Origin: Polynucleobacter sp. UK-FUSCHL-C3
GTDB lineage: Bacteria; Pseudomonadota; Gammaproteobacteria; Burkholderiales; Burkholderiaceae
Length of the DNA: 64,000 bases
NCBI RefSeq assembly: GCF_040409815.1
Contig: NZ_CP099959.1
Coordinates: 1,612,001 to 1,676,000, forward strand
Direction: 5' to 3'
Part shown: positions 59,342-63,955 of the stretch, piece after piece
Numbering within the stretch: the stretch's first letter is position 1
How the letters are laid out: every line of letters starts with the position of its first letter
Notes under the pieces: model-generated
Database searches by the model: none
Seen by the model: the letters and a program-made list of their open reading frames with translations, nothing else
What the model was told of the DNA's origin: nothing
Position numbers and translations under genes: made by a program

Positions 59342-59821
59342 ATGAACAAACTGACGCACTTTGATTCCAGTGGACAAGCCCACATGGTAAACGTTGGCGA
59401 TAAAGCCTCCACCCACCGAATAGCCATTGCTAGTGGTTGCATTCAAATGCATCCTACCACCTATGAGCTTATTCAGGCAGGCGGTCATAAAAAAGGGGAT
59501 GTCCTTGGAATAGCCCGAATTGCAGGCATTCAGGCCTCCAAGAAGACCTCCGATTTGATCCCCCTCTGCCACCCTCTTGCCCTAACGCATGTCAGCGTAG
59601 AATTTGAGTCCACGCCTACAACCAACATCATTCGATGCACAGTGAGGGCAGAAACAACTGGGCAGACCGGCGTAGAAATGGAAGCCCTCACAGCAGTCCA
59701 AGTTGCTCTCCTCACAATCTACGATATGTGCAAAGCAGTCGATCGTGGCATGGTCATGAGTGATATTAAATTACTAGAAAAGAGCGGTGGTAAATCTGGA
59801 GAGTGGAAGGCGAGTAAGTAA
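59342..59821 (+). CDS. moaC: cyclic pyranopterin monophosphate synthase MoaC
   Basis: MoaC acts in the first stage of molybdenum cofactor synthesis, rearranging the GTP-derived intermediate to cyclic pyranopterin monophosphate. The 159-residue protein from ATG 59342 has [17 protein letters not shown] (about 74-90) and [12 protein letters not shown] near 110-121. It ends [14 protein letters not shown]. An extension to 59123 would run antisense through the peptidase gene and is rejected. The last 129 bp recur in diverged form at 62509-62634, so this gene marks the left edge of an inserted segment. Confidence 0.96.
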
Positions 59822-59979
59822 CCAAAAGTATATATAGCAATAACAGGGGCAATAAAAAATTTTGGCGCAATCCTGACCTACCAAGAAATAGGTAAATAGT
59901 AACTTTTTGAAACCAAGGCTACAAGAAGCAAACCCGCATTACCCACAAAGGGCAACAAGTAATTTTAAGCACTTACTAA

Positions 59980-62163
59980 CTAAATAATAGAGATATGATC
60001 TGGCTCTAAACCAGCTTGATATCGGTCATACATCTGGATATAGGCTGCTTCAAGATTTTTAGTAAAAAGCGGTGTATCAAATAAGGGGGTAGTCAAGCGA
60101 TTGTTAGCCAGCTTCAATTTAATCTTTGCAAGTTTCTGAGGATTCGTGGCTAACTCAATTGCTAAGGCTTCATACTGCTCTTGATTCGTTGTAATGAGCT
60201 CAGGTAAGTCAATCGCATTCAAAAGACTCGCTGCTACCCGACTGGCGAACGACTGACCCATGAGCGTTAATACTGGTAGTCCAGTCCATAGGGCATCACT
60301 AGCAGTTGTTCCAGCGTTATACGGAAAAGTATCTAAAAATAAATCGCAAACTTGATAGCGAGTCAGATATTCACTATAAGAAATATGCTCACCAAAGACT
60401 AATCTAGAACAATCAACACCTCTGACTCTTGCTTCCTTTATAAGATTAGCTTTTGACCACTTACTATCAGCATAAAGAAAAAGTATACTACCATCCACCG
60501 CCTTCAAAATATGCATCCAGCTATCAAAGGTAGCGGGCAAAAACTTGTAGTTATTATTAAAGCAGCAAAAAATAATTCCCGCGCTGGGAAGCCCAAATCC
60601 TGTACGTGTAAATTTCTTATCGGAGATAGCACGTTTTCGATCATTTGCTTGGTAGTTTGGCAGACGTACAATTTTTTCTGCATAGAAATGGTCAAACCCA
60701 CTAGGAATTATGGTTTTATCTGCTACCAAATAATCGTAATACTCAGCGCCTATTGTTCCTAAATACCCAATATAACTTAACTGAATAGGGGCCGCTCTAC
60801 AAGCAAAAATACCTACTCGAGCGCTATCGGTATGCCCACCTAAATCAACTGCAATATCAATTTCTAAGTGTCTCGAAAGTTGGGCAATTTGCTGATCAGA
60901 CTTTGTTTTTACATCTATAAATAGATCGAAAGCCTGTTCTAAGCGTGAACGCAGTAGAGTTTGACTGTCGACACCAAAAGAAAAGGCAACAATTTCAAAT
61001 CTATTTTTATCGTGTAGCTCAAATAGTTCTGCGGTTAAGAATGCAACAGGATGCTCTCTAAAATCGCCAGAAAAATATCCAACTCGGATTTTCTCTTTTT
61101 GGGAGTATTTATGGTTTAGACCTAAAATATCGTTATGTGGATATTTGGATAAAGTATAAATTTCAGCAGCTTTTTTATGAAATAAAGTATTATCAGTAAA
61201 ACCAAGGGCAGGAAATGGTCTTAAAACTCTTTTATTGGTCATTACGCTATTAGAAAGCTCATCAAAATCATCATTAAAATGCGACCAATCACATATTTTC
61301 ATTTTAGTATGGAGTAAATCACCAAAGACCCATTCAATATCATTCTTTAAAGTGAGTGCCTTATCGAAGCAAGAAATTACCTCGTCGTAGCGTTTAAGCG
61401 CATTTAGTGTGACTCCTTTGTTATACCAACCCTCTGCATAATTCGGCTTTAAACTTAAAGCCTTATCGTGGTTTGTAATTGCTTCATCATAGCGTTTGGT
61501 TTCATATAAGGCATTTCCTTTGTTCGACCAACCCTCGGCAAAGTCGGGCTTTAGACTTAAAGCATTAGTAAAGTGTTCAATTGCCTCATCATATTGTTTG
61601 ATTTCATATAGAGTATTTCCTTTATTTGACCAGATTTCTGCAAAGTCAGGCTTTAGACTTATGGCTATATCGAAGTGTGTAATTGCCTCTGCATAACGCT
61701 GAATTTGATGCAATGCAATGCCCTTATTGATCAGCGCCTCAACATAATCTGGTGTCAGTTTTAGTGCCTCATCAAAACAATCCAAGGCTTGTAAATATTG
61801 ACTTAAATCTAATAACGTTTTTCCATAACTAAGCCAAGCTCTTGGATTTTTTGGAGCTAGTTCTACTGCTTTTTTGTGATGAGGTATCGAATCCCAAAGA
61901 TTGCCTAAGTCATGCAAACTTTTAGCTAAGTTATATTGAATAGCAGCATCATTTGGTTGAATGCTTGTAGCTTTCTTTAAATAATCAGATGCTTCTTTAT
62001 AATTTGCTTGTGTAACTCTAATTAATCCGAAAATACTCAATGCAGAGTAGTTTTTTGGATCTACCTTCAAGATCTTTTTTATAATCGATTCAGCCCGCTC
62101 GAAATTACCAGTCTCAAAAGCCTGTATTGCTTGGGAAAGCATAATTTGTAGTTGAGGATTCAT
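59980..62163 (-). CDS. TPR-containing GT41 glycosyltransferase (SPINDLY/OGT-like)
   Basis: This 727-residue protein has about eight TPR units in residues 1-280. A GT41 catalytic domain follows, with RVGYFSGDFREHPVAFLTAE (about 366-385), DIAVDLGGHTDSARVG, FDSWMHIL and LFLDTFPYNAGTTASDALW as the nucleotide-sugar and acceptor motifs. Such proteins transfer GlcNAc or other sugars to Ser/Thr of proteins, or build glycans. No signal peptide is seen, so action is cytoplasmic. The gene is clearly more AT-rich than its neighbours, stands alone between two moaC 3' ends and adjoins the pilin gene. Horizontal acquisition is likely. The substrate is unknown; nearby pilin is one guess. Confidence 0.93.
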   Translation of the reverse strand: MNPQLQIMLSQAIQAFETGNFERAESIIKKILKVDPKNYSALSIFGLIRVTQANYKEASDYLKKATSIQPNDAAIQYNLAKSLHDLGNLWDSIPHHKKAVELAPKNPRAWLSYGKTLLDLSQYLQALDCFDEALKLTPDYVEALINKGIALHQIQRYAEAITHFDIAISLKPDFAEIWSNKGNTLYEIKQYDEAIEHFTNALSLKPDFAEGWSNKGNALYETKRYDEAITNHDKALSLKPNYAEGWYNKGVTLNALKRYDEVISCFDKALTLKNDIEWVFGDLLHTKMKICDWSHFNDDFDELSNSVMTNKRVLRPFPALGFTDNTLFHKKAAEIYTLSKYPHNDILGLNHKYSQKEKIRVGYFSGDFREHPVAFLTAELFELHDKNRFEIVAFSFGVDSQTLLRSRLEQAFDLFIDVKTKSDQQIAQLSRHLEIDIAVDLGGHTDSARVGIFACRAAPIQLSYIGYLGTIGAEYYDYLVADKTIIPSGFDHFYAEKIVRLPNYQANDRKRAISDKKFTRTGFGLPSAGIIFCCFNNNYKFLPATFDSWMHILKAVDGSILFLYADSKWSKANLIKEARVRGVDCSRLVFGEHISYSEYLTRYQVCDLFLDTFPYNAGTTASDALWTGLPVLTLMGQSFASRVAASLLNAIDLPELITTNQEQYEALAIELATNPQKLAKIKLKLANNRLTTPLFDTPLFTKNLEAAYIQMYDRYQAGLEPDHISII
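61327..61734 (-). repeat. four tandem 102-bp TPR-coding repeats
   Basis: Residues 144-279 of the GT41 protein are four consecutive 34-residue units starting LINKG, WSNKG, WSNKG and WYNKG. The second and third units are alike in DNA as well as protein over the 102-bp period, which suggests recent duplication and possible copy-number variation. Confidence 0.85.
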
Positions 62164-62508
62164 AATTTATATTCTAAATATATATGTAGAGCTTTAGCAA
62201 AAATCCAACTGTTACCACCACTTTAAAAAATATTAAATTATTTAAGATAAATACTGGGCATAGATAGGCTGGATGGTGAGAATGCGGCAGGTGAGTCAGC
62301 TTCTAGAAAATCATAAAGGGCACCTGTCTTTAGTTATTATATTCATGAGACCTCACTAGCCAATCTACCATGAATATATTTTGCAATTATGAGGCTCTTG
62401 TTGTCTTTTTCTTGCCTTTTTTCCATTTTTTTATTTATTAATTAATTAATTTGACGGTGTTTGGTTTTATGATCTTTTAGTTTTTCTTTTTTAGCGGGTT
62501 TTCTCTCC
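62164..62508. other. AT-rich non-coding stretch between GT41 gene and moaC remnant
   Basis: No gene is supported here. Upstream of the GT41 start, TTGCTA and TAGAAT with an 18-bp gap are a possible minus-strand promoter. A short plus-strand open stretch ends in a stop near 62340 (encoding DRLDGENAAGESASRKS), which could be a gene remnant. A 10-bp inverted repeat and a TTAA-type simple repeat (about 62434-62453) follow. The composition resembles a recombination scar rather than normal spacing for this genome. Confidence 0.5.
62338..62378. repeat. 10-bp inverted repeat in the AT-rich spacer
   Basis: TATATTCATG (62338-62347) and CATGAATATA (62369-62378) are perfect inverted copies with a 21-bp centre. 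There is no T-run after either arm, so a terminator is unlikely. A binding site or the trace of a mobile element end are possible. Confidence 0.6.
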
Positions 62509-62634
62509 GCAGTCCAAGTTGCTCCCCTCACAATCTACGATATGTGCAAAGCGGTAGGCCGTGGCATGGTGATGGGGCATGTCAAGCCCTTTGAGAAGAG
62601 TGGCGGTAAGTCTGGAGAGTGGAAGGCGAGTTAA
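62509..62634 (+). pseudogene. moaC: diverged remnant of the moaC 3' end
   Basis: The 41 codons plus stop here align without gaps to codons at 59693-59815 of the intact moaC. I count 102 of 123 bases and 34 of 41 residues identical by hand. The remnant reads [19 protein letters not shown] and ends [12 protein letters not shown] then stop, one residue shorter than the intact copy. No start codon or upstream moaC sequence is present, so it is not expressed as MoaC. The pattern of substitutions (LL to PF, SDI to GHV) indicates a copy from another lineage rather than a fresh duplication. Confidence 0.92.
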
Positions 62635-62651
62635 TTAAAAGCTCGCCTTCC
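62621..62651. terminator. hairpin at the moaC remnant/pilin junction
   Basis: GGAAGGCGAG (62621-62630, the last moaC codons) and CTCGCCTTCC (62642-62651) form a perfect 10-bp stem with an 11-nt loop, 5 bp after the pilin stop. No T-run follows on either strand, so it is at best a weak or rho-assisted terminator. The intact moaC end at 59821 lacks the complementary arm. Confidence 0.6.
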
Positions 62652-62656
62652 CTACC

Positions 62657-63157
62657 TTATTTACCAGCCCTGCATTCTGCAGGAAGCAATTTTGCTGAAA
62701 GACTGGTTTGCTCCGAACGACACGACCAACCCCCAGACCAGCTTGTAACACCACTTTGTGATAAGTCTATTGCCCGTGGAGATGCAACGTCCGGTTCATT
62801 GGTGGGGATCAATATCAAACTATTTTTACCATCTGGGGCAACAGTAGTTTGGTAATCAATAGCAATCGCCCCGTTTGCAAGGATCTCAATCTCTTTGACA
62901 CTGCGTGTTGCCGTAAATGAGAAAGCCTCTTGAGTCGCTCGATCCATCGGTGAAGGGCCCTTAGTCGCGTAGGCTTCGGCTACTGCTAATTTGGCACTAG
63001 AAGCTAAATTTAAGCCCTCAACCACTCTGCCACGGGCTATGTAATCCTGATACTGAGGCACTGCAACCGCAACCAAGATACCAATGATGGCAACGACTAC
63101 CATCACTTCAATTAAAGTAAAACCTTTTTGATTTATATCTTTATTATTTTTAAGCAT
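62657..63157 (-). CDS. type IV pilin (PilA/PilE-like major or minor pilin)
   Basis: This 166-residue prepilin has leader MLKNNKDINQKG and the prepilin peptidase site before FTLIEVMVVVAIIGI, with the conserved Glu at mature position 5. The hydrophobic N-terminal helix is followed by VPQYQDYIARGRVVEG and a beta-rich head. Two cysteines near the end (CRSEQ..PAEC) form the expected C-terminal disulfide loop. It is a lone pilin gene between terC and the moaC remnant. Its ribosome-binding site AAGGAGG lies inside a long stem-loop (63164-63213). Confidence 0.95.
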   Translation of the reverse strand: MLKNNKDINQKGFTLIEVMVVVAIIGILVAVAVPQYQDYIARGRVVEGLNLASSAKLAVAEAYATKGPSPMDRATQEAFSFTATRSVKEIEILANGAIAIDYQTTVAPDGKNSLILIPTNEPDVASPRAIDLSQSGVTSWSGGWSCRSEQTSLSAKLLPAECRAGK

Positions 63158-63253: not shown

Positions 63254-63955
63254 TTAAGTGCTAACTTTTTTACTGCTACGCTTCACCAATTCACCAACAG
63301 CCATCACTCCAATCGCACCAGCAATACCAGCAATGGTGGCGTAATCCGCCAAGCCTTCACCAAATTGCTTAATAAGCGCAGGGTCGGTCATCATCATGCC
63401 ACCCGCAATCCAACCCAAGAGACCCGCACCAGCAGTCACAATGAGTGGGAAACGATCGATAAGGTATAGAACAACCTTGCTACCAGCAACAATAATGGGA
63501 ACCGAGACGATCAAACCAAAGATCACATAGCCCACTTGATGGGCTGCATTATCAACTTGACCCGCTGCACCTGCAATTGCAAGTACGTTGTCTAGACTCA
63601 TTACGATATCCGCAATGATGATAGTTTTAATAGCAGCAAAGAGTTTGTCTGGTGCATCAAGATTGTGCTCTTCTTCATCGTGCTGCACCATGAGTTTGTA
63701 GCCAATCCATAACAGTAATGCGCCACCAACTAATTTCAAGAACGGTATTTGTAATAAAGTGACTGCAAAAGCAACTAGGATGACGCGTAAGATAATCGCG
63801 CCGGCAGTTCCCCAAATAATGCCCTTCTTTCTTTGATTGGGATGCAAGTTGCGGCAGGCTAGCGCAATCACTACGGCATTATCGCCGCCCAAAAGAAGAT
63901 CAATGATGATGATTTGGATCACCACAGACCAGTCAATCATTGCTAAAAATTCCAT
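63254..63955 (-). CDS. TerC-family integral membrane protein
   Basis: This 233-residue protein has about seven membrane helices. The TerC motifs LLGGDNAVVIALACRNL (about 21-37) and ADIVMSLDNVLAIAGAAG (about 114-131) each carry the paired acidic residues thought to bind metal. Many members export manganese or support metalation of exported proteins; the role here is inferred from the family. GAGGAAG precedes the ATG. Only 45 bp of its upstream region is in the window, so a riboswitch cannot be assessed. Confidence 0.93.
   Translation of the reverse strand: MEFLAMIDWSVVIQIIIIDLLLGGDNAVVIALACRNLHPNQRKKGIIWGTAGAIILRVILVAFAVTLLQIPFLKLVGGALLLWIGYKLMVQHDEEEHNLDAPDKLFAAIKTIIIADIVMSLDNVLAIAGAAGQVDNAAHQVGYVIFGLIVSVPIIVAGSKVVLYLIDRFPLIVTAGAGLLGWIAGGMMMTDPALIKQFGEGLADYATIAGIAGAIGVMAVGELVKRSSKKVST

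Follow-up and report, generated by a model that had tools for sequence, protein, structure and literature searches.

Elements that carry a tyrosine recombinase and insert into the 3' end of a protein-coding gene are represented in Escherichia coli by e14 and phage 21, both of which are found in icd. Searches of the open-licence literature brought up no paper that describes moaC as the target of an integrase, and the titles and abstract openings that were covered yielded no open-licence paper on Polynucleobacter islands at moaC. The Cupriavidus metallidurans island CMGI-A is listed as bordered by a moaC gene, Rmet_4428 (PMC7019866); moaC does not figure in the passages covered of a second paper (PMC2864759).

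In this study, we analyzed 64,000 nucleotides of Polynucleobacter sp. UK-FUSCHL-C3 (the window; contig NZ_CP099959.1, positions 1,612,001 to 1,676,000), in which a glycosyltransferase gene lies between moaC and a pilin gene. It is concluded, with a probability that we put at about 0.88, that the 3' end of moaC is the attachment site of integrative elements with tyrosine recombinases and that the island in the window is a dead member of this group that carries a GT41 glycosyltransferase. We postulate that the element's own recombinase would cross over within a core of about 11 bp over the codons for DMCKA, so that the element would bring a new moaC 3' end and the old one would stay behind as a remnant beside the pilin gene; moaC would remain intact after insertion because the element supplies the replacement. 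In the window the element would subsequently have died, leaving a leader and an integrase stub after the loss of the remaining integrase, with GT41 between the stub and the right end; the sequence in which the integrase was lost and GT41 came in is inferred. Later homologous recombination may have reworked moaC or moved the finished island.

A second moaC tail beside the pilin gene

Intact moaC (159 codons; 59342..59821, forward strand) is followed, about 2.8 kb away, by a second copy of its tail: nt 59687-59815 match 62503-62631 without a gap over about 129 bp at 82-83% identity, and in a search of the whole genome at E ≤ 0.001 this copy (82%, E = 8.8e-31) was the sole second match. Alignment to the intact gene delimits a remnant that extends from moaC nt 346 to the stop (62503..62634, forward strand, on the attR side), its reading frame closed by a TAA at 62632-62634. 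Between the two copies lies the AT-rich GT41 gene (59980..62163, reverse strand; 37% GC versus 46% for the window), which encodes an OGT-like protein of 727 amino acids with a Glyco_transf_41 domain (Pfam, 1.2e-75) and TPR repeats. The first-pass annotation of this DNA had described this arrangement, with a gap-free remnant that has its own stop, and had added that the hairpin partner stays with the remnant and not with the intact gene; both descriptions were borne out. A terminator-like hairpin (62621..62651, forward strand; GGAAGGCGAG/CTCGCCTTCC) is formed at the remnant end with DNA from the pilin side at -22.1 kcal/mol, versus a fold of only -2.3 kcal/mol at the intact moaC end. Farther right are a type IV pilin-like gene with a prepilin motif (62657..63157, reverse strand) and terC (63254..63955, reverse strand), which the genus survey and the comparison of loci identified as the constant right flank.

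Two direct copies in one genome could also reflect a simple duplication, tandem or segmental, of the end of moaC; however, copies so divergent in sequence, in an arrangement that recurs in at least 24 other loci of the genus, many of them with an integrase or its relics, make this origin extremely improbable. Neither of the outcomes that the first-pass annotation had named as contrary to its own reading, namely a recent duplication within the genome or a GT41 gene with a single moaC end in all relatives, was seen.

Integrases and moaC remnants in relatives

moaC was present in 176 of the 186 genomes of the genus, from which 140 loci were taken for comparison. The pilin gene followed moaC after 7 to 172 nt in 57 of these loci (empty gaps), after 200 to 11,544 nt in 68 (filled gaps) and was out of sight in 15; the moaC-pilin gap is therefore a variable site with constant flanks. 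The first-pass proposal of a hot spot with variable cargo was supported across the genus, with inserts of 0.2 to 11.5 kb in 68 of the 140 gaps. Among the moaC-to-pilin stretches that were filled or truncated (83 stretches, 352 kb), 25 contained a copy, at least 60 nt long, of the moaC tail of the same locus; the control, 1,504 kb of sequence from the 140 loci lying upstream of moaC or past the pilin gene, contained none. A tblastn match to GT41, which may include matches to TPR repeats only, was obtained in 18 of the 68 filled gaps. A block of symporter and DUF294 genes recurred in five loci that have no remnant, and the idea that every filled gap is an integrase island was rejected on these grounds. 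We also observed that the gap 3' of moaC in L115 holds extra terC-like genes, one of them fused to a universal stress domain, and that a pilin gene and moaC also lie near each other in two Methylococcales records (L083 and L096).

A complete tyrosine recombinase gene was found in 13 of the 140 loci, always on the same strand as moaC and starting 45 to 81 nt 3' of its stop; the L133 product matched PF00589 at 97.9 bits. In all 11 of these loci whose contig extends to the pilin gene, a remnant of the moaC 3' end is found on the side of that gene, so that the recombinase adjoins a rebuilt gene while the old 3' end lies at the far side. In the remaining two, L131 has a remnant and the contig of L201 ends with none before that point. 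Filled gaps that lack a complete integrase had a remnant in 10 of 57 cases versus 11 of 11 (Fisher's exact test, P = 2.3e-7). No remnant was detectable in the other 47 of the 57, and some inserts at this site may therefore stem from outside the integrase family; empty gaps are uninformative in this respect because they are too short to contain a remnant. Beside a complete integrase the remnant had a median identity of 98.8% to the intact end (12 loci); remnants elsewhere have decayed, with an identity of 82.5% (13 loci). In L129 and in L187 the gap contains a pair of remnants, as would be expected of serial insertions at one site. The start of most remnants lies near nt 346 or nt 330 of moaC, with flanks shared within each set, and a few start elsewhere. 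By eye, paired direct repeats resembling TTGTCCAAAT were seen near both element ends, at the left ends of L126, L173, L174 and L281-L286 and the right ends of L126, L173 and L190; they are possibly arm-type binding sites for the integrase. A phage origin was considered and rejected, the only viral matches being four contigs at 29-35% identity.

The moaC side of the window island resembles the left ends of some of these elements. Window nt 59831-59914 align to the leader and first integrase codons of L195 and L244 (score 61 each) and L133 (46) and, over a shorter stretch, L250 (37); for these 4 of 15 leaders the match exceeded all 500 shuffles, and for the other 11 there was no match above shuffles. 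The relic of the left leader, from the moaC stop to the integrase start, occupies 59831..59895 (forward strand), and comparison of reading frames with the integrases places directly after it a decayed 5' stub of a tyrosine recombinase gene of about 27 codons with an internal stop (59896..59976, forward strand). Codons 7 to 27 of the stub scored above all 5,000 random sequences against 11 of 16 integrases and were beaten by two and one of the 5,000 against those of L190 and L195, respectively; they were not distinct from random against L131, L134 and L187, in two of which (L131 and L187) the start used lies upstream of the true start. The similarity stops at 59976, beside the GT41 stop at 59980. 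A genome-wide search at E ≤ 1e-60 found no such integrase; only the stub remains, and the island would not be a living element. On the pilin side, a probable right end of the element (62459..62502, forward strand) adjoins the remnant; its resemblance to other right ends is weak, with only one flank reaching ≤10 of 500 shuffles.

Similar truncations were found in other loci. L244, from another species, has moaC, the leader, about 35 integrase codons and a GT41 gene in matching orientation (65% identity over 372 residues before the contig ends), and in L132 the integrase breaks after about 12 codons and GT41 lies further on; since the break points differ among the window, L244 and L132, the cuts look separate. 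A leader-like stretch scoring above all 60 shuffles was present in 18 of the 127 loci that lack a complete integrase, where about two would be expected by chance.

These data bear on the earlier proposal that a cassette was swapped by homologous recombination inside moaC, with no integrase ever involved. Cargo that varies between constant flanks fits such a swap, as do a moaC that is mosaic relative to the same-species genome and a remnant body foreign to the species (see below). However, the window retains an integrase leader and 5' stub at the junction, relatives carry an integrase together with a remnant at exactly this site, and the remnant start points are recurrent with shared flanks, all of which makes such a swap a distinctly improbable sole origin. 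The claim that no integrase was needed is accordingly not supported, and exchange inside moaC does not explain the structure; what survives of the proposal is that such recombination may have moved or reworked the finished island, and we regard it as a likely later step.

Related integrases also occur outside the genus. Of 299 genomes searched across the family, 96 had a match at E ≤ 1e-60, and among 30 loci taken from these, 12 adjoin moaC, 2 of them in Polynucleobacter and 10 in six other genera. Across the order, 14 of 399 genomes had a match at E ≤ 1e-100; moaC adjoins the integrase in 2 of the 14 loci, which belong to two further families. When the 10 loci of other genera were taken at greater length, a moaC remnant lay 5 to 17 kb on in 7, with pilin and terC past the remnant in 6; those with no remnant were two short contigs and L281, which has none within 18.7 kb. 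Other genera of the family thus share the order moaC, integrase, cargo, remnant. Among 55 integrases placed in a tree, those linked to moaC and three linked to pntB split from 27 others with weak support (84/56). The pntB-linked integrases are nested within the moaC-linked group (100/98 for the branch uniting them with the Polynucleobacter set); therefore, the target of the integrase may have switched. They come from three Polynucleobacter genomes (L253, L254 and L255), in which the integrase runs from position 1501 on, 80 to 160 nt past the 3' end of an apparent pntB, which we take the gene for the upstream neighbour protein to be.

The proposed crossover core and the possible later history of the island

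Two lines of evidence suggest that crossover takes place within 11 bp, ATGTGCAARGC, over the DMCKA codons of moaC. In L123, the remnant departs from the intact end as far as nt 384 and matches it fully from nt 385 on, and in L177, sites become mostly native to the remnant from nt 396. The remnants of L287 and L290, from other genera, start at ATGTGCAARGC and count as a single line because one flank is common to both. The core covers codons 129 to 132 (nt 385-395) within the motif YDMCKA, which is also present in the best-matching MoaC structure, and Asp128 and Lys131 of MoaC are presumably active-site residues. Should the core indeed fall on active-site codons, this would explain how a single site can work across genera. 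By comparison with relatives, the putative core in the window is ATGTGCAAAGC at 59726..59736 in intact moaC, with its counterpart in the remnant at 62542..62552 (both forward strand), and the codons 3' of the core in the intact gene are expected to be element-borne.

The polarity comparison covered 26 pairs of intact end and remnant, of which 5, including that of the window, were skipped for indels; counts over all pairs are muddled because the remnants have decayed. In L195, six sites spoke for a crossover at the core and three against, and a single crossover there fits L126, L183 and the window poorly. The window and L126 had suggested the extreme 3' end of moaC as a general crossover point, an idea that was dropped on the evidence of L177, L287 and L290; for the window itself, a crossover at that position is possible.

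The only same-species reference was one other genome, G049, which is 59% complete. Relative to G049, the M48 side of the window is 94-100% identical, moaC is a mosaic at 85-100%, and the pilin-terC side is 93-98% identical except at 63435-63634 (8 and 84% per 100 nt). Identities of both moaC ends to the 140 loci, remnants included, were also compared. On the right side of the core, identity to G049 moaC is 91.7% for the intact tail but only 77.8% for the remnant, whose identity to any of the 140 loci is at best 86.1%. Plain integration predicts a native-type remnant, which the window does not have; its polarity is the reverse of that prediction, the intact tail being nearer to G049 than the remnant is, and mixed polarity was also seen in the pairs of L126, L183 and L195. 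The DNA 3' of the remnant stop matches the empty site of G049, and the last codons of intact moaC are non-native. The first-pass view of the remnant as the original moaC end is therefore sustained for the DNA after its stop but not for its body.

A non-native remnant implies either that the finished island came by homologous recombination or that moaC was reworked later. In the first case the dead island would have been imported whole, through homologous recombination or one crossover close to the stop of moaC, after the integrase had acted in an earlier host. We give this history slightly less than an even chance; it is a version of the preferred explanation, and its share is counted within the estimate given above for an attachment site with a dead element. 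It is favored by the foreign remnant with native DNA beyond it and by the non-native last codons of intact moaC, but with one other genome of the species, itself incomplete, the native moaC tail is poorly known.

Cargo and relation to described systems

GT41 proteins scored over the cut-off in 134 of the 186 genomes of the genus, at many sites. Modification of the neighbouring pilin by the window enzyme is conjectural. The cargo of some integrase-bearing elements includes an autotransporter, an SRA-HNH protein or an ATPase that is RepA-like and has primase-type domains. The ATPase noted at L133:4867-6273 and L166:4777-6360 is of the AAA_25 type, likewise with primase-type domains, and is possibly a replication module. 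None of 10 cargo proteins matched PADLOC defence systems, and the scan of cargo proteins named no phage or conjugation genes. It can be envisioned that an undescribed integrase family, spread over at least three families of the order, docks on the active-site codons of MoaC, that its dead copies have repeatedly been fixed in this genus as glycosyltransferase cassettes by separate integrase truncations and that the GT41 enzymes decorate the adjacent pilin; taken as a whole, this scenario is unlikely.

As for described systems, the window GT41, like other bacterial GT41/OGT-like enzymes, combines Glyco_transf_41 with TPR repeats and is ordinary. Island CMGI-A similarly abuts a moaC gene; unlike the elements reported here, it is described, in the part of the source available to us, with no attachment site, remnant or moaC-specific integrase (PMC7019866). 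The analysis names the moaC 3' end as a docking site, together with a matching recombinase family; islands at this site can therefore be predicted, and their moaC remnants allow them to be ordered. The case also illustrates how the site of a mobile element can turn into a stable place for surface-modification genes.

The organization at moaC is reminiscent of that of e14 and phage 21 at icd. In both cases the integrase lies next to the restored end of the gene, the former end persists as a remnant at the opposite side of the element, and the core, as proposed here for moaC, falls within a conserved coding stretch. Unlike e14 and phage 21, the elements described in this study are small and have moaC as their target.
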